Assembly (NCBI RefSeq): GCF_036021035.1
Contig: NZ_CP107930.1
Span: forward strand, 3,100,001-3,164,000
Reading direction: 5' to 3'
Length of the DNA stretch: 64,000 nt
From: Kineococcus sp. NBC_00420
GTDB taxonomy: Bacteria > Actinomycetota > Actinomycetes > Actinomycetales > Kineococcaceae
A program made the position numbers and the translations under genes. How positions within the stretch are numbered: the first letter of the stretch is position 1; the number at the start of each line of letters is the position of its first letter. Shown piece after piece: positions 2,767-20,058 of the stretch. The notes beneath the pieces are model-generated. The model ran no database searches and was not told the DNA's origin. It worked only from the letters and a program-made list of their open reading frames with translations.

Positions 2767-3960
2767 CTACCGGTGCTCGTCGTGGCGCGGGACGAGGGGC
2801 AACGCCGCCAGCGGGGCGAGGGCGACGAGCGCCATCGTCGAGGGGTACCCGACGGCGGTGACCAGCGCGCCGACCCCCGGCCCGACGGCGGAGGCGGCGA
2901 GGAACTGCCCGGTGTTCTGCAGCCCGAGGGCCTTGCCGGACCAGCGCGGTCCGGCGGCCTCGGCGACGGAGGTGAACGCGAGACCGTTGTCCGCGACGCT
3001 GACCGTCGAGGCCACCACGAGCACCGCGGCGATCGCCACCGGCCAGTGCGCGTACCCGACGGCGGCCAGCAGGGCCAGGACGACGACCCCGGACACCGCG
3101 ACCCAGCGCAGGACGCGGACCCGGCTGCCGACCCGGTCGCTGAGGACCCCGACGACGATCCGGCCCAGTGCGCCGACGAACTGCGCTCCGCCGACCACGA
3201 CCCCGGCGAGCGTCTGGTCCCAGTCGAGCCCGACGGTGAGCCACACCAGGCCGAAGGTCGACAGGGTGAACTGCGGCAGGACGAGCAGGACGGACACCAG
3301 GTGGATCCGCAGCAGGAAGTGGTTGCGGCGGTAAGGGTTCTGCGAGGCGGCGGCGTCGGTCATCGGTGCGCGCGGCGGGTTGCGGATCCCCGCCGCGCAC
3401 ACGACCGCCAGCACGGCCAGGACCCCGGCACCGAGCAGCAGCGGGGCGCCGATCCCCGCGGAACCCGCCAGCGGCGGCACGACGAGCGCCGCCACGGCCA
3501 TCCCCAGGGGCTGGGACATCTGTCGCAGACCCATCGCGAGGCCGCGACGTTCGCGCGGGAACCAGCCGACGACGACGCGTCCGCTGGCGGCGTTCGTGCT
3601 GGCCGCGGCGGCTCCGCCGAACCCCAGGGCGAGCCCGAGGGGGAGGAGACCGGACGTGCTCGCCGCGACCGCGGCACACACCGCCGTGAGGGCCAGGCCG
3701 CCGGCGATGACCCAGCGTTCCCCGACCCGGTCGGCCAGGGCGCCCCACGCGACCAGGGTCAGGACCATGCCCAGGGTCGGCGCGGCGGCCAGGGTCCCGG
3801 CCTGCGTCAGCGGCAACCCGCGCTGCAGGTGGAGGAGGGGGATCAGGTACACCGGCGTGCTCACGAGGAGGGTCCCGGCCGCCTGCGCCGCGATCCCGAG
3901 GGTGAGCATCCGCCACGCGGCCGCGGGAACGCGGGGCGCTGCGGTGTACGTTTGTGGCAT
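2767..3960 (-). CDS. MFS transporter
   Basis: A 397-residue major facilitator with twelve predicted helices and a central loop near residue 205 (the NPYRRNHF region). The MFS loop 2-3 motif appears as GALADRVGERWV and its second-half counterpart as GVLSDRVGSRVRV. The substrate is unknown. The ATG at 3960 is preceded by TACCGT at six bases, so the mRNA is probably leaderless. A palindrome over this promoter and start codon points to control by the divergent GntR regulator. Confidence 0.85.
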   Translation of the reverse strand: MPQTYTAAPRVPAAAWRMLTLGIAAQAAGTLLVSTPVYLIPLLHLQRGLPLTQAGTLAAAPTLGMVLTLVAWGALADRVGERWVIAGGLALTAVCAAVAASTSGLLPLGLALGFGGAAAASTNAASGRVVVGWFPRERRGLAMGLRQMSQPLGMAVAALVVPPLAGSAGIGAPLLLGAGVLAVLAVVCAAGIRNPPRAPMTDAAASQNPYRRNHFLLRIHLVSVLLVLPQFTLSTFGLVWLTVGLDWDQTLAGVVVGGAQFVGALGRIVVGVLSDRVGSRVRVLRWVAVSGVVVLALLAAVGYAHWPVAIAAVLVVASTVSVADNGLAFTSVAEAAGPRWSGKALGLQNTGQFLAASAVGPGVGALVTAVGYPSTMALVALAPLAALPLVPRHDEHR

Positions 3961-3978
3961 ACCAAAACGGTATCCCAC
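3954..3978. promoter_or_regulatory. Inverted-repeat operator between MFS and GntR genes
   Basis: Arms GTGGCATACC (3954-3963) and GGTATCCCAC (3969-3978) are complementary at nine of ten positions across an AAAAC spacer. The site covers the MFS -10 (TACCGT on the minus strand) and its ATG. It ends just before the GntR ribosome-binding site. FCD-type GntR proteins bind short palindromes in such divergent promoters, so autoregulation plus repression of the transporter is inferred. Confidence 0.6.
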
Positions 3979-3989
3979 GAGGAGGCGAC

Positions 3990-4670
3990 GTGTCGGACGG
4001 TCCCTACGAGACCCTGCGGGCCGCCGTCCTGGGGTTCGAGTTCGTGCCCGGCGAGAAGCTCAGCGAACGCGGTCTCGAGGAGTTCCTCGGCGCGTCCCGC
4101 ACCCCGATCCGCGCCGCCCTGGTCCGGCTCGAGAACGAGGGCCTGACCGGGCGGGTGGGCCGCGGCTGGCGGGTCGCACCCATCGACCTCGCCGAGGTCC
4201 GGGCCGTCACCGAGCACCGCGAGGTCGTCGAGACCGGGGCGCTGGCCCTCGCCGTCGAACGCGCCACGCCCGCTGAACTCGCCGCGGTGCGGGCGCTCCT
4301 CGAGGCGGAACCCGTGGCCGACGACGAGGAGAGCGGCCTGCGGGGCGGCAGCGACTTCCACCTCGCGCTGGTGCGGTTGTCCCGCAACCCCTTCCTGGTG
4401 GAAGCCCTCAACGGGACGCTGACCCGGCTGGCCCGCACCCGCTGGCTGGAGGTGCGGACCGCGGCGTCGCGCGAACAGGCCCGGGCCGAGCACCGGGGGA
4501 TCCTCGACGCCGTCGAGGCCCGCGACGCCGACCGGGCCGCGGAACTGCTCCGCGCCCACAGCCGGGGGACGGCGGAGCGGTTGCTCGCCCACCTGGCGCA
4601 GGAGCGGCGCCGGTTGCGCGGGCGGGGTTTCTCGATCGTCGAGAGTTCGACGGCACCGCCCGCGCTGTGA
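3990..4670 (+). CDS. GntR-family regulator, FCD type
   Basis: A 226-residue regulator with an N-terminal winged helix (residues ~5-65, including LSERGLEEFLGASRTPIRAA) and a C-terminal helical FCD ligand domain (DFHLALVRLSRNP, then EHRGILDAVEARD) of the kind that binds organic acids through histidines and a metal. GTG at 3990 is preceded by AGGAGG at 3980-3985. The gene diverges from the MFS transporter across a palindromic operator, so the transporter is its probable target. Confidence 0.9.
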   Translation: MSDGPYETLRAAVLGFEFVPGEKLSERGLEEFLGASRTPIRAALVRLENEGLTGRVGRGWRVAPIDLAEVRAVTEHREVVETGALALAVERATPAELAAVRALLEAEPVADDEESGLRGGSDFHLALVRLSRNPFLVEALNGTLTRLARTRWLEVRTAASREQARAEHRGILDAVEARDADRAAELLRAHSRGTAERLLAHLAQERRRLRGRGFSIVESSTAPPAL

Positions 4671-4686
4671 GCGGCGGTGAGCGTCC

Positions 4687-5115
4687 TCAGTCGGGCTGCA
4701 TGCTGCTGGGGATCCGGTCCCGGTCGTAGGTGATCGTCGAGTAGCCGTGCGGCGCAGGCAGTCCGTCGGCGCCGAGGTTCACGAACACGATCTTCTCGAT
4801 GGTCAGGATGCTCTGCCGGGTGATCATGTTGCGGACCTCGGCGCGCATCGTCAGCGAGGTGCGACCGAAGGCCGTCGCGCGCAGACCCATCTCCACGAGG
4901 TCGCCCTGCTGCGCGGAGGAGACGAAGTTGATCTCGGAGATGTACTTCGTGACGACGCTGCCGTTGCCGAGCTGGAGGATCGCGTAGATCGCGGCCTCCT
5001 CGTCGATCCAGCGGAGCAGGCTGCCGCCGAAGAGGGTGCCGTTGGCGTTGAGGTCCTCGGGGCGGACCCACTTGCGCGTCCGGAAGATGATCTCTTCCCC
5101 GTCATGTCCTGACAT
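4687..5115 (-). CDS. Hotdog-fold acyl-CoA thioesterase
   Basis: A 142-residue hotdog thioesterase of the YciA/BACH type, expected to hydrolyse acyl-CoA. It shows the motif NANGTLFGGSLLRWIDEEAA (residues ~24-43) with the conserved Asp in the central helix, then VTKYISEINFVSSAQQGD. The ATG at 5115 lies six bases after TAAGCT and has no Shine-Dalgarno sequence, so it is probably leaderless. The end is close to the convergent GntR gene. Confidence 0.85.
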   Translation of the reverse strand: MSGHDGEEIIFRTRKWVRPEDLNANGTLFGGSLLRWIDEEAAIYAILQLGNGSVVTKYISEINFVSSAQQGDLVEMGLRATAFGRTSLTMRAEVRNMITRQSILTIEKIVFVNLGADGLPAPHGYSTITYDRDRIPSSMQPD

Positions 5116-5124
5116 GAAGACAGC

Positions 5125-5715
5125 TTAGTGGGCTGTTCCGTCGACGAGGAGGAGCTGGATCGCGTCGTCGACGAGGGCGTCGCCGAGCTCCTGGGGGATC
5201 CGGTGGGAGGCGATCAGGGAGGCGACGCCCTGCAGGGTCGCGACGAAGAGGAGCTTCGTCCGCTGCCGGTCGGGTCCGCGGAAGCGGCCGGCCCGCAGGT
5301 CGGCGTCGAACAACGCGTCGAAGGTCGAGAAGAACGCCGCGGCGGCTTCCCGGACGCTCTCCGCGGCGTCTGCGCCCTTGGTGGAGAACATCAGCTCGAG
5401 CAGTCCGGCGTCGGTGACGGCGAAGCCGACGTAGGCCGCCGCCACGCTGCGCAGACGGTTGACCAGGTCGACGGGGTGGGCGGCGCCCGCCGTGGCGACG
5501 TCGTGGGTCAGTCGCACGAAGCCGCGTTCGGCGAGAGCGACCAGCAGGGCCTGACGGTCGATGAAGTGACTGCGCGGTGCGCCGTGACTGACGCCGGCCT
5601 GCCGGGCCAGCTCGCGCAGGGAGAGGTCCTCGACGCTGCCCTCGCGCAGGGTCCGTTCCGCCTGGTCCAGCAGGACCGCGCGGAGGTTCCCGTGGTGGAA
5701 GGGCTGGCGCGTCAC
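5125..5715 (-). CDS. TetR-family regulator
   Basis: A 196-residue TetR repressor. The N-terminal helix-turn-helix spans residues ~8-55 (ELARQAGVSHGAPRSHFIDR) and the C-terminal part is an all-helical ligand domain of WHG type. The GTG start has TACCCT six bases upstream and no ribosome-binding site. It diverges from the SDR gene, and a short palindrome (5754-5770) overlaps the shared promoter region. The SDR is therefore the likely regulated gene. Confidence 0.88.
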   Translation of the reverse strand: MTRQPFHHGNLRAVLLDQAERTLREGSVEDLSLRELARQAGVSHGAPRSHFIDRQALLVALAERGFVRLTHDVATAGAAHPVDLVNRLRSVAAAYVGFAVTDAGLLELMFSTKGADAAESVREAAAAFFSTFDALFDADLRAGRFRGPDRQRTKLLFVATLQGVASLIASHRIPQELGDALVDDAIQLLLVDGTAH

Positions 5716-5742
5716 GCAACCAGGGTAGCGGTGAAGTAGACG

Positions 5743-5779
5743 TTGACTATTTGACTAGACGCTGCCTAGTATCTTGTCT
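5743..5779 (+). promoter_or_regulatory. Leaderless promoter of the SDR gene with embedded TetR-type operator
   Basis: A -35 TTGACT (5743-5748), an 18-nt spacer and a -10 TAGTAT (5767-5772) end seven bases before the SDR ATG at 5780, so transcription would start at or next to the start codon. The arms ACTAG (5754-5758) and CTAGT (5766-5770) form an inverted repeat with a 7-nt centre lying between the promoter elements. This is a plausible binding site for the divergent TetR protein. Confidence 0.6.
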
Positions 5780-6646
5780 ATGCCTACATCTGCGGCGACA
5801 CCGCTCCCCGACCTCACCGGCCGCACCGCGATCGTGACCGGAGGCGGCAGCGGGATCGGCGCGGCCACGGCCCGAGCCCTCGCCGCCCGGGGCGCCCGCG
5901 TCGTGCTCGCCGTCCGGAACCGCGAGAAGGGGGAGCGGGCCGCCCGGACCATGCCCGGGCAGGTCGAGGTCCGGGACCTCGACCTGGCGGACCTGGCCTC
6001 GATCCGCTCCTTCGCCGCCGGCTGGGACGGGCCGATCGACCTGCTCGTCAACAACGCCGGGGTGTCCGTCCCCGACCTCCGGCGCACCGCCGACGGTTTC
6101 GAACTGCAGTTCGGCACCAACCACCTGGGCCCGTTCGCCCTGACGAACCTGTTGCTGCGCCACGTCTCCGGCCGGGTGGTCGCCCTCTCCTCCCAGGCCG
6201 AACGGATGGGGAGGATCGACCTCGACGACCTGGGCCTCGAGCGGACGAAGTACGTGGAGTCCCGGGTCTACGCGGCGTCGAAGCTCGCGAACCTGCTCTT
6301 CGTCACCGAACTGCAGCGCCGGTTGACCGCGGCCGGATCTCCCGTCCTCGCCGCCGCCGCGCACCCGGGCCTGGTGACGACGAGCATGACCACCGGGAGC
6401 GGCGGCGCGGTGACGAGGCTCCTGGTGCGCCTCCTGGCCCAGGACCCGGACCAGGGCGCCCTGCCCGTGCTCCTCGCCGCGACGGGAGACGTTCCTCCGG
6501 CCGCCTTCACCGGTCCCGAGCGGTTCGCGCACATGCGTGGCGGCGCGATGCTGATCGGACGGTCCCGGCAGTCGAAGGACCCCGTCCTGGCGAGCCGGTT
6601 GTGGTCGGCGTCCGAGGAGCTCACCGGAATCGGTTTCGGTCTCTGA
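5780..6646 (+). CDS. Short-chain dehydrogenase (retinol dehydrogenase-like)
   Basis: A 288-residue classical SDR resembling retinol dehydrogenase/WWOX-type enzymes. It has the dinucleotide-binding TGGGSGIG (residues ~20-27), NNAG (residues ~91-94), the N of TNHLGPFAL, catalytic Ser in VVALSSQ and the YAASK motif. NADP preference is suggested by R after the second strand (AVRNREKGE). The substrate is unknown. Expression is probably controlled by the adjacent TetR gene. Confidence 0.88.
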   Translation: MPTSAATPLPDLTGRTAIVTGGGSGIGAATARALAARGARVVLAVRNREKGERAARTMPGQVEVRDLDLADLASIRSFAAGWDGPIDLLVNNAGVSVPDLRRTADGFELQFGTNHLGPFALTNLLLRHVSGRVVALSSQAERMGRIDLDDLGLERTKYVESRVYAASKLANLLFVTELQRRLTAAGSPVLAAAAHPGLVTTSMTTGSGGAVTRLLVRLLAQDPDQGALPVLLAATGDVPPAAFTGPERFAHMRGGAMLIGRSRQSKDPVLASRLWSASEELTGIGFGL

Positions 6647-17119: not shown

Positions 17120-17485
17120 ATGGGCAGCACGGACCCGGTCGACACCAACCCTGGTTCCTACGCCGTCGTCTTCGAGAACGACCGCGTCCGCGTCCTGGAG
17201 TACCGCGACGTCCCGGGTCACCGCTCCGTGCCCCACGAGCACCCCGACAGCGTCATGGTCACCCTCAGCTCGTTCCGGCGCCGCCTGATCGCCGGGGACC
17301 GCCAGGTCGACGTCGAGCTCCCGAGCGGGGCCGTCCGGTGGCTGGGCGCCCAGGGCCATTCCGGGGAGAACACCGGGGACACCGAGACGCACTGCCTCTT
17401 CGTGGAGCTCAAGGAACCCGCCCCCGTCCCGCGCGAGGGTGCGCCCCCGCTCGGACCCAGCGGTGACGCCGCCGCGCGCGTCTGA
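17120..17485 (+). CDS. Small cupin-like protein
   Basis: A 121-residue soluble protein with a cupin-like pattern: VVFENDRVRVLEYRDVPG, then VPHEHPDSVMVTLSSF and a later HSGENTGDTETHCLFVELKE. This fits a single beta-barrel that may bind a metal through HEH. The function is unknown. TAGCGT lies six bases before the ATG and no ribosome-binding site is present, consistent with a leaderless mRNA. It precedes the sigma-factor locus, but nothing in the sequence ties it to that locus. Confidence 0.7.
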   Translation: MGSTDPVDTNPGSYAVVFENDRVRVLEYRDVPGHRSVPHEHPDSVMVTLSSFRRRLIAGDRQVDVELPSGAVRWLGAQGHSGENTGDTETHCLFVELKEPAPVPREGAPPLGPSGDAAARV

Positions 17486-17501: not shown

Positions 17502-17531
17502 GAGGCAACCTCGCGGGGCGCTGCGTCGTCT
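17502..17531 (+). promoter_or_regulatory. ECF-type promoter of the sigma-factor gene
   Basis: GAGGCAAC (17502-17509) is followed by a 17-nt spacer and CGTCT (17527-17531), which ends eight bases before the GTG at 17540. AAC in the -35 and CGTC in the -10 are typical of ECF promoters. The same motif with identical spacing precedes the exported protein at 18519, suggesting autoregulation and a leaderless transcript. Confidence 0.62.
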
Positions 17532-17539
17532 GGAGAGGT

Positions 17540-18046
17540 GTGGGGGGTTCGTTCGAGGAGTTCGTGAGCACCGGCAGCGACCGGCTGCTCGGCTTCGCGC
17601 TGCTCCTGACCGGCGACCGCGGCCACGCGGAGGACCTCCTGCAGGACGTGCTCGAGCGGATGTACGTGCGCTGGCGCCGCATCGACGACCCGCACGCCTA
17701 CGCCCGCACGGCGCTGGCCCGCAAGGTCACCGACCGGTGGCGGGCGCGGGCCCGTCGACCGCGCGAGGTCGTCTTCGAGGACCACCACGACGACCCCGTG
17801 GCCGACGGTGCCGCGGAACGGGCCGAACGGTCCCGGGTCGTCGAGGCGCTGCGGAACCTGCCGCCGCGGCAGCGCGCCGTCATCGTCCTGCGCTACTTCG
17901 AGGACTGGTCGGAGGAGCAGATCGCCGACCAGCTCGACGTCTCGCGCGGGACGGTCAAGAGCCAGGCCTCCAAGGGACTGGCCGCACTGCGTCAACGCAT
18001 GCAGGAGAGGAACGAGGAGGTGGGCGCACGGTGGACGAAGGGCTGA
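17540..18046 (+). CDS. SigE-family ECF RNA polymerase sigma factor
   Basis: A 168-residue ECF sigma factor of the actinobacterial SigE family. Region 2 (residues ~15-75: LTGDRGHAEDLLQDVLERMY and the following helix) recognises the -10, and region 4 (LPPRQRAVIVLRYFEDWSEE, then VSRGTVKSQASKGLAAL) recognises the -35. GTG at 17540 has no ribosome-binding site but is placed exactly as the downstream ATG at 18519 relative to a shared promoter motif, which supports this start. It overlaps the next gene by 16 bases. Confidence 0.92.
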   Translation: MGGSFEEFVSTGSDRLLGFALLLTGDRGHAEDLLQDVLERMYVRWRRIDDPHAYARTALARKVTDRWRARARRPREVVFEDHHDDPVADGAAERAERSRVVEALRNLPPRQRAVIVLRYFEDWSEEQIADQLDVSRGTVKSQASKGLAALRQRMQERNEEVGARWTKG

Positions 18047-18477
18047 GCGGCTGGGAGGACCGGCTGCGGCGCGAGCTCGACGCGTCGGTCCGCGACGTCC
18101 GGACGGGTGACGACCTCGTCGTGCGGACGCGAGAAGGGGGTCGGCGACGGGTGCGGCGCCGGCGCGCGCTGGTGACGTTGCCCGCGGCGGTCGTCGTGGC
18201 GGGGGGTGCGGTGTGGGCGGGCCGCCAGGCCGCGCCCCAGCCGGTGGCCCCGGCGAGCAGCCCGATCACGGCCGCCCCGACGCCGCTCGTGGTGGCGACG
18301 GTGCCACCCGTCCTGACGATGGGTGAGGACGCTGCCCGTGACGTGTTCTTCGGCGCCGGCTACACCTACGACGACGCGGTGGAACTCGGGGGGTTGTGGA
18401 ACACCGACGACTGGCAGGCCAAGGCCCTCGGTGGGCAGGCCCTGCAGAACGGTCAGGCCCTTCCGATCTCCCGCTGA
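18031..18477 (+). CDS. Single-pass membrane protein in anti-sigma position, with one GYTYDDA module
   Basis: A 148-residue protein with a short cytoplasmic part (residues 1-45), one transmembrane helix (ALVTLPAAVVVAGGAVWAG, ~46-64), a Pro/Ala linker and an outer module (~100-148). The module contains AGYTYDDAVELG, then W, AK, GG and LPIS landmarks. The position behind, and overlap with, the sigma gene suggests an anti-sigma factor, but no ZAS or other known anti-sigma motif is seen. The module is repeated twice in the next gene. Confidence 0.72.
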   Translation: MDEGLSGWEDRLRRELDASVRDVRTGDDLVVRTREGGRRRVRRRRALVTLPAAVVVAGGAVWAGRQAAPQPVAPASSPITAAPTPLVVATVPPVLTMGEDAARDVFFGAGYTYDDAVELGGLWNTDDWQAKALGGQALQNGQALPISR

Positions 18478-18480
18478 TCC

Positions 18481-18510
18481 GAGGCAACGCGACGAGTGCG
18501 TGAGGCGTCT
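18481..18510 (+). promoter_or_regulatory. ECF-type promoter of the exported GYTYDDA protein
   Basis: GAGGCAAC (18481-18488), a 17-nt spacer and CGTCT (18506-18510) reproduce the motif upstream of the sigma gene. In both cases the -10 begins 13 bases before the start codon. The predicted transcript is leaderless or has a leader of only a base or two. Confidence 0.62.
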
Positions 18511-18518
18511 TCCAGGGC

Positions 18519-19085
18519 ATGAGCGACAACGACACCCGGATCACCCGGACCCCGGCGAACCGGCGCGCAGCGCGGATCGTCACGGCGACCATCGTCGCGG
18601 GCGGCATCGCCCTCGCCGGCGGGACCGCCTACGCCAACGCGGACCCCGAGCAGGCCCCGGCCGCCCCCGCAGCGGCTCCCGCGGTCCCCGTCACCCACGT
18701 CGACCCCGTCCCCGCGCCGAGCACCGACCCCGACCAGGCCTCGCGCGAGGTGTTCTTCGCGGCGGGCTACACCTACGACGACGCCGTCGTCCTCGGTGCG
18801 CAGTGGTCGCAGGACCCGTGGGAGGCGAAGGTCACCGGCGGCGAGAAGCTCACCGCCGGTGAGGCCCTGCCGATCGCCCCCGGCAGTTCCCCGACGGCTC
18901 CGAGCGACCCCGGGACCGGGGTCGGTGACGACGAGTCCGCGGCCGTCGACGCGTTCTTCGCGGCCGGGTACACCTACGACGACGCCGTTGCCCTCGGTAC
19001 CGTCTGGAACGTGGACCCCTGGGAGGCGAAGGTCACCGGCGGCGGGAAGCTGCTCGCGGGCGAGACCCTGCCGGTCGCACCCTGA
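18519..19085 (+). CDS. Exported or membrane-anchored protein with two GYTYDDA modules
   Basis: A 188-residue protein with an N-terminal hydrophobic helix (IVTATIVAGGIALAGGTAYA, ~20-39) that may be a signal peptide or an anchor, a Pro/Ala-rich linker and two copies of a ~48-residue module (~71-120 and ~138-187). Each module has FFAAGYTYDDAV, LG, W, DPWEAKVTGG, L, G and LP in fixed order. The module also occurs once in the upstream protein. I do not recognise the domain. The promoter matches that of the sigma gene. Confidence 0.75.
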   Translation: MSDNDTRITRTPANRRAARIVTATIVAGGIALAGGTAYANADPEQAPAAPAAAPAVPVTHVDPVPAPSTDPDQASREVFFAAGYTYDDAVVLGAQWSQDPWEAKVTGGEKLTAGEALPIAPGSSPTAPSDPGTGVGDDESAAVDAFFAAGYTYDDAVALGTVWNVDPWEAKVTGGGKLLAGETLPVAP

Positions 19086-19086
19086 C

Positions 19087-20058
19087 GTGAGCACGAGCCT
19101 GCCGCGCGCCGGTTTCGAGGTCGAGCTGCTCGCCCCCGTCGGGGTGAGCCGGCTCGACCTCGCGCAGGAGATGGCTTCCCGCGCAGGCGGATCGGTGCGT
19201 CGCCGGTTCCACGTCGACACCGAGGCGTCGTCGGCGCCGGGGGTGTCGACGTTCTGGCACCTGACCCCCGCCTTCGACGTCCTCGACGCCGGGGGCGGGG
19301 CGGTGTGCTCCCTCGTCGACGACACGACGATCGTCGCCGACCTCGACGCCCGGGCACCCTCGAAACCCGGGTGGTACCGGATCCTCAGCGACGACCCGCG
19401 GCTGCTGCGCCTCGTGGAACGTCACGCCGACCCGGCGGAGGGGATCGGATCGGTGCTGGACCCCGTCGCGGAACTGTTCGGCGTCCGGGTCCGGGACGCC
19501 GGGGTCGTGCGCAGGCTCGACGACTCCGCGGGGGCGACGATCGCGCTGGCGGCGCCGCTGCCGGGGGAGCGGGAACGTCCCTGCGAGGTCGTGACCCCGC
19601 CGTGGGTGGACGACCACGCCCGGCGACTCGAGGAACTGCTGGAACCCGCCCGCGACCTGGGGTTCACCGTTCCGGCCGAGGCGGCCGTCCACGTGAACCT
19701 CGACGCCGGACCGTTCCGGGACGTCGGGCGGTTCCGGCACGTCGTGTCGACGTTCGGGGAACGTCGCGAGGAACTCCGGGGACTGTTCGCGACGAACCCG
19801 CGCTGCACCCGGCTCGCGCCGCTGCCCGTGGAACTCGTGGAACTCGTCCGACGGGACTGGCCGGACTGGGGTTCGCTGCGCACCGCCGCGGCCGCCACGG
19901 GCGTGAGCAAGTTCAGCGACGTGAACCTGACGCGGGTGCTGGGCGTGCGTCCGGGCCCCGACGTCCTCGAGGTGCGGATCCTGCCCGGGGCCATCGACGG
20001 GGCGTCGATCGGTGGGCGGTTCGTTCAGCTGGTGGAGTTGTTGCGCTCGACGAGGTAG
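19087..20058 (+). CDS. Amidoligase-family enzyme
   Basis: A 323-residue protein resembling the ATP-dependent amidoligase family related to glutamine synthetase. The opening GFEVELLAPVGVSRLDLA and the HVDTEASS and VDDTTIVADLD segments correspond to the metal-binding beta-strands. VHVNLDAGPF and LEVRILPG correspond to later catalytic strands. Known relatives are thought to form peptide-like bonds; no substrate is known. The usual partner amidotransferase is absent. The 3' end overlaps a small convergent gene. Confidence 0.7.
   Translation: MSTSLPRAGFEVELLAPVGVSRLDLAQEMASRAGGSVRRRFHVDTEASSAPGVSTFWHLTPAFDVLDAGGGAVCSLVDDTTIVADLDARAPSKPGWYRILSDDPRLLRLVERHADPAEGIGSVLDPVAELFGVRVRDAGVVRRLDDSAGATIALAAPLPGERERPCEVVTPPWVDDHARRLEELLEPARDLGFTVPAEAAVHVNLDAGPFRDVGRFRHVVSTFGERREELRGLFATNPRCTRLAPLPVELVELVRRDWPDWGSLRTAAAATGVSKFSDVNLTRVLGVRPGPDVLEVRILPGAIDGASIGGRFVQLVELLRSTR

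Follow-up and report, generated by a model that had tools for sequence, protein, structure and literature searches.

A repeated protein module shared by the membrane partner of a SigE-family sigma factor and an exported protein has an amidoligase as its steadiest partner

In the actinobacteria compared here, the steadiest partner of a small repeated protein module is an amidoligase and not the sigma factor encoded in the same neighbourhood. The module occurs once in a membrane protein and twice in an exported protein of the window, by which we mean the whole stretch of 64,000 nucleotides that was analysed, taken from the 5.43 Mb genome of Kineococcus sp. NBC_00420. Our best reading, to which we give a probability of about 0.4 as a whole, is that a SigE-family sigma factor, a membrane regulator, an exported multi-module protein and an amidoligase form a four-gene unit, in which the sigma/regulator pair would drive a module protein and an amidoligase acting on its modules or on what these bind, with sensing through the shared module. 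The findings suggest an undescribed surface system whose enzyme acts on the module or works with it.

The gene unit

An earlier note on this DNA, limited to 17502-19085, had listed the sigma factor, a single-pass protein with one module and an exported protein with two modules as consecutive genes. All three are at these places; the interval ends one gene short, and the amidoligase was missed. The features, all on the forward strand, are as follows.

17504..17530, +, predicted ECF-type promoter of the sigma-membrane operon, GGCAAC (-35)-N17-CGTC (-10), with the sigma start 36 bp on
17540..18046, +, SigE-family ECF sigma factor, 168 aa (TIGR02983; Pfam Sigma70_r2 and r4)
18031..18477, +, single-pass membrane protein, 148 aa, putative sigma regulator; GTG start, 16 bp overlap with the sigma gene
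18328..18471, +, outer module of the membrane protein (profile match)
18483..18509, +, second copy of the predicted ECF-type promoter, with the exported ATG 36 bp downstream
18519..19085, +, exported protein, 188 aa, two modules; N-terminus signal-peptide-like as judged from the sequence by eye
18735..18881, +, exported module 1 (profile match; three AlphaFold2 helices, block pLDDT 95-98)
18936..19082, +, exported module 2, at the extreme C-terminus (profile match; three AlphaFold2 helices when predicted alone)
19087..20058, +, amidoligase, 323 aa, GTG start (Pfam Amidoligase_2; homologues adjoin module genes elsewhere)

On inspection, the N-terminus of the exported protein shows RRAAR, a hydrophobic stretch and AYA/ANA, and a single base separates the stop codon of its gene from the GTG of the amidoligase. 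Upstream of the sigma gene, at 17120-17485 (+), lies a gene for a small protein that looks cupin-like by eye; it has no Pfam or NCBIfam match and is not among the genes common to more than a few of the compared loci.

The module

The earlier note had also proposed that the three modules share one conserved pattern and that this pattern has no named domain, and both proposals hold. A search of the genome with module 3 recovers the three modules (E 3.2e-28, 7.5e-20 and 1.3e-14), together with one extra row of 19 residues at E 0.7 that we take as chance. In an alignment of 143 modules, from which those below 25 bits were left out and doubly fetched loci removed, a tryptophan is present in all 143, followed by P (142), G (139), L (139), K (137), an acidic residue (D or E) where helix 2 begins (137) and Y (134). 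Proteins carry from one to five copies. AlphaFold2 predicts three helices per module, both for a single module (exported module 2; mean pLDDT 94.0, pTM 0.72) and for the tandem (mean pLDDT 89.8, pTM 0.54), where the module blocks reach 93-98 and the linker stays below 50.

A match to a known domain of unrelated function, which would speak against these proposals, was looked for in Pfam, NCBIfam, PDB sequences and folds, and none was found. The membrane and exported proteins of the window came near no cut-off in Pfam or NCBIfam, and for 39 module pairs the best E-values shown were 0.027 (Pfam) and 0.0038 (NCBIfam), to unrelated models and in 1-3 rows. Among PDB sequences the exported protein had no match at E <= 10 and the best for the module profile was 0.24, while fold searches of PDB and BFVD with the tandem and with the single module gave nothing at E <= 0.001; the matches to homeodomain-, UBA- and HTH-like three-helix folds were weak and fell outside this limit.

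The CW_7 wall-binding repeat (PF08230), with which the module presumably has the string AGYDY in common, was set aside: it reached E 0.07 at best, in 2 of 39 rows and short of the gathering cut-off, and no PF08230 match at E <= 0.001 was present in any of 60 genomes, the window's own included. Two PHROG families were dropped as chance or composition, namely phrog_17424 (function label none; best E 1.2e-5, 20 of 39 rows) and phrog_20474 (endolysin; E 2.1e-5, 5 of 39 rows); in the five pairs inspected singly the matched stretches cover about 14-41 residues. With one module pair, tblastn gave no match in 50,697 phage records (E <= 1) or in 72,556 plasmid records (E <= 0.1), and one viral-contig scan yielded no relative.

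The module is no accident of composition, since it recurs in 10 of the 11 Kineococcus genomes (that of the window included) and in other families. Judged from the searches made, it is a new repeated domain that no known domain fits.

Distribution and the amidoligase

After duplicates had been taken out by hand, the module was present in 42 actinobacterial genomes. It was detected in 20 of 297 genomes of an order sample, 5 of 394 of a class sample and 2 of 396 of a phylum sample (the window's genome being counted in each), and these are lower bounds because in the wide samples scoring was restricted to some of the candidates of each genome. The named scan depended on a single short peptide pattern, which limited it; its 26 loci fall in Kineococcus, Actinoplanes and genera close to it, Kineosporia, Cellulomonas, Actinotalea, Quadrisphaera, Mangrovihabitans and two metagenome assemblies.

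The enzyme of the window belongs to Pfam Amidoligase_2 (PF12224), which it matches with 43.3 bits against a cut-off of 22 and which is its only Pfam match at E <= 1. In 40 of the 42 genomes a module gene is followed by an amidoligase gene, at 0-140 bp from its last module. This holds after the exported gene where there is one and after the membrane gene in Actinoplanes-type loci, and also for all five genomes that have only the exported module protein and in which no sigma gene was found nearby. Three loci (L040, L043, L207) are without an amidoligase, and the same genomes carry one at another module locus (L039, L044 and L206). In Actinoplanes sp. M2I2 (L104) the 12 kb read contain neither a sigma gene nor an amidoligase, and in G904, an assembly that is 76% complete, there is no amidoligase in the 3 kb downstream on the module contig. 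The L104 protein (5539-6141) has two modules and looks membrane-type; it is perhaps a relic or a stand-alone form.

Presence and absence agree as well. With thresholds of E <= 1e-10 for the amidoligase and E <= 1e-4 for the modules, and the best candidates per genome scored, the order sample of 297 genomes has an amidoligase in 19 of the 20 genomes with modules and in none of the 277 without, and among 59 relatives (own genome among the rows; module E <= 1e-3) the same 13 genomes carry both. We think that module and amidoligase are gained and lost in step across families, a pattern that is hard to explain otherwise, although the genomes are related and therefore not independent.

The alignment of 38 distinct homologues, which leaves out L090 and the broken gene of L109, has 58 invariant residues, including E11, E13, E295 and R297; we take the invariant E-x-E and E-x-R to be catalytic residues of the GS type. 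Given these 58 residues the enzyme of the window is probably active. Identity of the homologues to it is 50-83%, and 41% for the one from Acidimicrobiales. In Quadrisphaera sp. INWT6 (L109, ~3850-4779; also in G868 C3) the amidoligase is in two pieces in different reading frames, which is either a broken gene or a sequencing error.

When modules, amidoligase and sigma factor were masked in 24 loci, no other ORF of at least 100 aa was common to more than 3 of the other 23. With this two-gene core and no other widely shared gene, amidoligase action on the modules would be the simplest reading. The enzyme could instead make or modify a ligand, and two explanations of this kind have to be considered. 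In one, the modules bind an envelope polymer or another extracytoplasmic ligand, a precursor of which (a wall peptide, for example) the amidoligase modifies in the cytoplasm, the membrane protein monitors the ligand, and the exported protein, made under control of this sigma factor too, forms a layer that binds or cross-links. Such an arrangement would fit with small exported modules in tandem on disordered linkers, which resemble binding repeats, with modules that lie outside the cell and an enzyme that shows no evident signal peptide, and with the cell-envelope stress regulon that the founding SigE member controls according to the accessible part of PMC6767563. The 24 loci, however, have no wall-synthesis gene or other gene widely common beside the unit, and neither fold nor sequence links the module to known wall-binding domains (CW_7 included), so that we see this explanation as possible but somewhat doubtful. 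In the other, the product of the amidoligase is a small peptide or metabolite with an amide link, which is exported and then carried or sensed by the modules. This would agree with the proposal, attributed to Iyer (2009), that amidoligases make modified peptides and metabolites, but no transporter or second biosynthetic gene is widely common in the 24 loci and we hold it to be improbable.

Sigma factor and membrane partner

The sigma factor scores 171.6 bits on TIGR02983 (SigE-fam_strep; cut-off 141.55) and is thus a SigE-family member. The membrane protein consists of cytosolic residues 1-44, a transmembrane helix at about 45-63 and one outer module. In the broad sense it qualifies by position as a putative anti-sigma factor, being encoded by a single-pass membrane gene directly downstream of and coupled to the sigma gene. 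Among the Class I anti-sigma factors the ZAS subtype carries a zinc motif. The membrane protein falls outside Class I (ASDI/ZAS), with a cytosolic part of about 44 residues and no Cys or His in the whole protein; the limit for a Class I domain, as given in the accessible part of PMC7406223, is at least 50 cytosolic residues.

This genome has 34 ECF-like genes, 9 of which are over the SigE-family cut-off, and for 7 of these 9, the one of the window included, a crude hydropathy test points to a single-pass membrane protein in the overlapping gene that follows. The sigma-membrane pair is therefore a common layout, and the module is its unusual part. A profile of the cytosolic part alone, searched against 813 ORFs, found one other sigma-coupled membrane protein at E < 0.1 (L156, 3.6e-4); an apparently strong homology of the N-terminus to other sigma-coupled membrane proteins shrank once the basic and membrane stretches were removed. 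Restraint of the sigma factor by the membrane protein is plausible from the position of its gene.

The association with sigma genes that the earlier note proposed to look for in actinobacteria does exist, a sigma gene lying directly 5' of a membrane-type module gene in 33 of the 42 module genomes; in one of the loci (L111, an Acidimicrobiales assembly) the two membrane modules are weak, at 25 and 23 bits. No sigma gene was found near the module gene in 6 of the 42. Five of these have the exported module protein only (Kineosporia A_224, Kineosporia R_H_3, G885, G025 and G691), with the contig beginning just 0.5-0.7 kb upstream of the module gene in R_H_3 and G885; the sixth is Actinoplanes sp. 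M2I2. In the remaining 3 of the 42 (G001, G904, G109) a contig end precludes a verdict, and in G001 a sigma gene sits at the end of another contig (L145).

At L046, L047/L093, L090, L096 and L212 a four-module exported protein is encoded with an amidoligase, and no sigma gene was found near. This pair is the minimal form of the system. In G811 the exported-amidoligase pair (L206) and the sigma-membrane pair (L207) are on separate contigs, so the two halves of the system can be unlinked or far apart.

Promoter motifs

In all six Kineococcus loci with the layout of the window, the exported ATG follows GGCAAC-N17-CGTC at a distance of exactly 36 bp and the sigma GTG follows a copy of it at 36-37 bp; the 75 bp in front of the membrane gene lack it. 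Of the 12 sigma loci examined in the genus, 11 have the motif 5' of the sigma gene, in some cases at greater distance; L044, which has a sigma factor of another type, does not have it, nor does K. xinjiangensis (L045), which the reference taxonomy places in another genus. Within the 64-kb window it occurs at 17504-17530 and 18483-18509 only. Shuffled versions of the window have a mean of 0.34 matches, and since 4 of 100 had two or more, the weight of the motif rests on the conservation of its position. Targets of sigma-E in Streptomyces coelicolor, in the examples given by the accessible text of PMC6767563, have a similar sequence (e.g. GGGAAC-N17-CGTCGT). The short distance from motif to start suggests leaderless transcripts.

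On this evidence the sigma factor of the window probably controls its own gene and the exported gene, and control of the exported-amidoligase pair is likely, if the motifs are active promoters. In 11 genomes the motif combined with a suitably spaced start codon occurs 81 times, against 20 for a reversed control, overlapping matches being counted. This genome has 10, two of them the sites of the window; one of three others that were read precedes a second SigE-family gene (L143/L151).

The second sigma factor (L151) is 52% identical to that of the window, with GGCAAC-N17-CGTC at L143 1294-1330 (G000:C1:423293-423329), and the membrane protein coupled to it has a different outer part. As the motif is common to both sigma genes, cross-talk between the two factors is possible.

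Other loci have other motifs, which were spotted by eye and counted afterwards. Of 17 sigma genes (Actinoplanes type, L097 and L048-L050), 14 have TGCAC and CGTC just before the start, two a TTACAC variant and one (L098) neither. At L087, L106, L109, L209 and L210, in other genera, the exported gene is preceded by yet another ECF-like motif, TCCACA-N16-CGT[CT], which the exported genes of L111, L206, L212, L093 and L046 lack.

Exported and membrane modules

The model of the earlier note was that exported modules compete with the module of the membrane protein or are sensed by it, so that the sigma factor is released. This could work through homotypic contact or a shared ligand, with feedback on the release. 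The position and overlap of the putative regulator gene are in line with this model, as is the promoter motif that sigma gene and exported gene have in common in all 6 loci of this layout. Moreover, a membrane module protein and a separate exported one coexist in 14 genomes, and their modules are more alike within a genome (best identity on average 60.6%, against 52.9% after swapping; reached in 0 of 2000 permutations), although the permutation, which swapped exported sets inside two groups of 6 and 8 genomes, ignores kinship within the groups. The membrane module is closest to an exported module of its own genome in 5 of 22 cases, from four genomes (G008, G004, Cellulomonas cellasea with both of its membrane modules, and K. 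vitellinus), but for the other 17 of the 22 another genome has a module that is at least as close.

In Actinoplanes-type loci the membrane protein carries every module, and the stretches read (about 8-12 kb each) show no exported protein apart from it; five genomes have the exported protein and no sigma gene was found near; competition is thus not the general purpose of the module. We consider the model unlikely as an explanation of the system, while competition of modules may operate in Kineococcus.

Proposed mechanism

Our preferred reading remains the one in which the sigma/regulator pair drives a module protein and an amidoligase that acts on its modules. The short cytosolic N-terminus of the membrane protein would hold the sigma factor inactive until the outer module senses a cue; the freed sigma factor would then use the GGCAAC-N17-CGTC sites to transcribe the operon it belongs to and the exported gene together with the amidoligase. 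The amidoligase, which lacks an evident signal peptide, would form an ATP-dependent amide bond on the module proteins before export. Each module offers two candidate sites for this bond, an acidic residue and a lysine that are both nearly invariant, and at the cell surface the modified modules would then act. The membrane regulator, which has this module too, would for that reason answer the same ligand or modified state as the exported effector, and output would be matched to need.

Several points weigh against this reading, besides the possibility of a ligand as the substrate. The modules as predicted by AlphaFold2 are compact and folded, whereas the cores of ligase-modified peptides are short peptides; the membrane protein is the sole module protein seen in Actinoplanes-type loci, so that effector and sensor are not separate there; and the anti-sigma role of the N-terminus is argued from position, its profile having found L156 and no other. 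A more specific version, in which the amidoligase puts an amide cross-link or an amide-linked group on each folded exported module and the regulator reads the state of the ligase product outside, seems to us rather unlikely, but would, if true, be a protein-scale counterpart of multi-core ligase-modified peptides.

Whatever the chemistry, the amidoligase group, for which we found no known substrate, gains a clear genetic partner, and the unit is a small and tractable case of an ECF sigma sensor and an exported output built on one module. If the modules are the substrate, a new post-translational modification of proteins would be tied to a transcriptional switch.

Comparison with known systems

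In SigI/RsgI systems the type of the sensor domain can match domains of the secreted products that the sigma factor controls. The biomass-sensing SigI/RsgI pairs of Clostridium thermocellum likewise have a membrane anti-sigma factor with an outer sensor domain (PMC12203970, accessible part). They differ in that SigI does not belong to the SigE family of ECF factors and in that RsgI combines an autocleaving periplasmic domain with sensors that are sugar-binding or enzyme-like; the accessible text mentions no amidoligase, whereas the window unit has one. Its sigma factor, moreover, passes TIGR02983, and no RsgI model is among the Pfam and NCBIfam matches of its membrane protein, which places the unit outside the SigI/RsgI group.

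Sigma-E of S. coelicolor is also of the SigE family and its target promoters are close to GGCAAC-N17-CGTC, but, as described in the accessible part of PMC6767563, it has no anti-sigma factor, depends on CseBC and does not have its own gene as a target. The enzyme is of the same family as other Amidoligase_2 (PF12224) proteins, from which its subfamily is set apart by the adjoining module. Multi-core graspetides (microviridin AMdnA/AMdnC; PMC5934393, abstract) likewise combine an ATP-dependent ligase with a precursor of repeated units, but theirs is an ATP-grasp ligase working on short peptide cores, where the window has an Amidoligase_2 enzyme and three-helix modules of about 45 residues, and the abstract describes no sigma regulator bearing the same unit. 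As the ligase family differs (Amidoligase_2 being the sole Pfam match), the unit is not a graspetide system.

Among the titles and abstract openings looked through, which do not cover the 2009 amidoligase survey or the 2021 ECF reclassification, no description of the module-amidoligase neighbourhood was found. Within this literature, what is of a known kind is the ECF sigma factor with a membrane regulator, and what is undescribed is the domain common to sensor and output, together with an enzyme that was not expected there. In its logic, a single sigma factor whose sensor and output carry the same domain, the unit would work like the RsgI/SigI systems without belonging to them.
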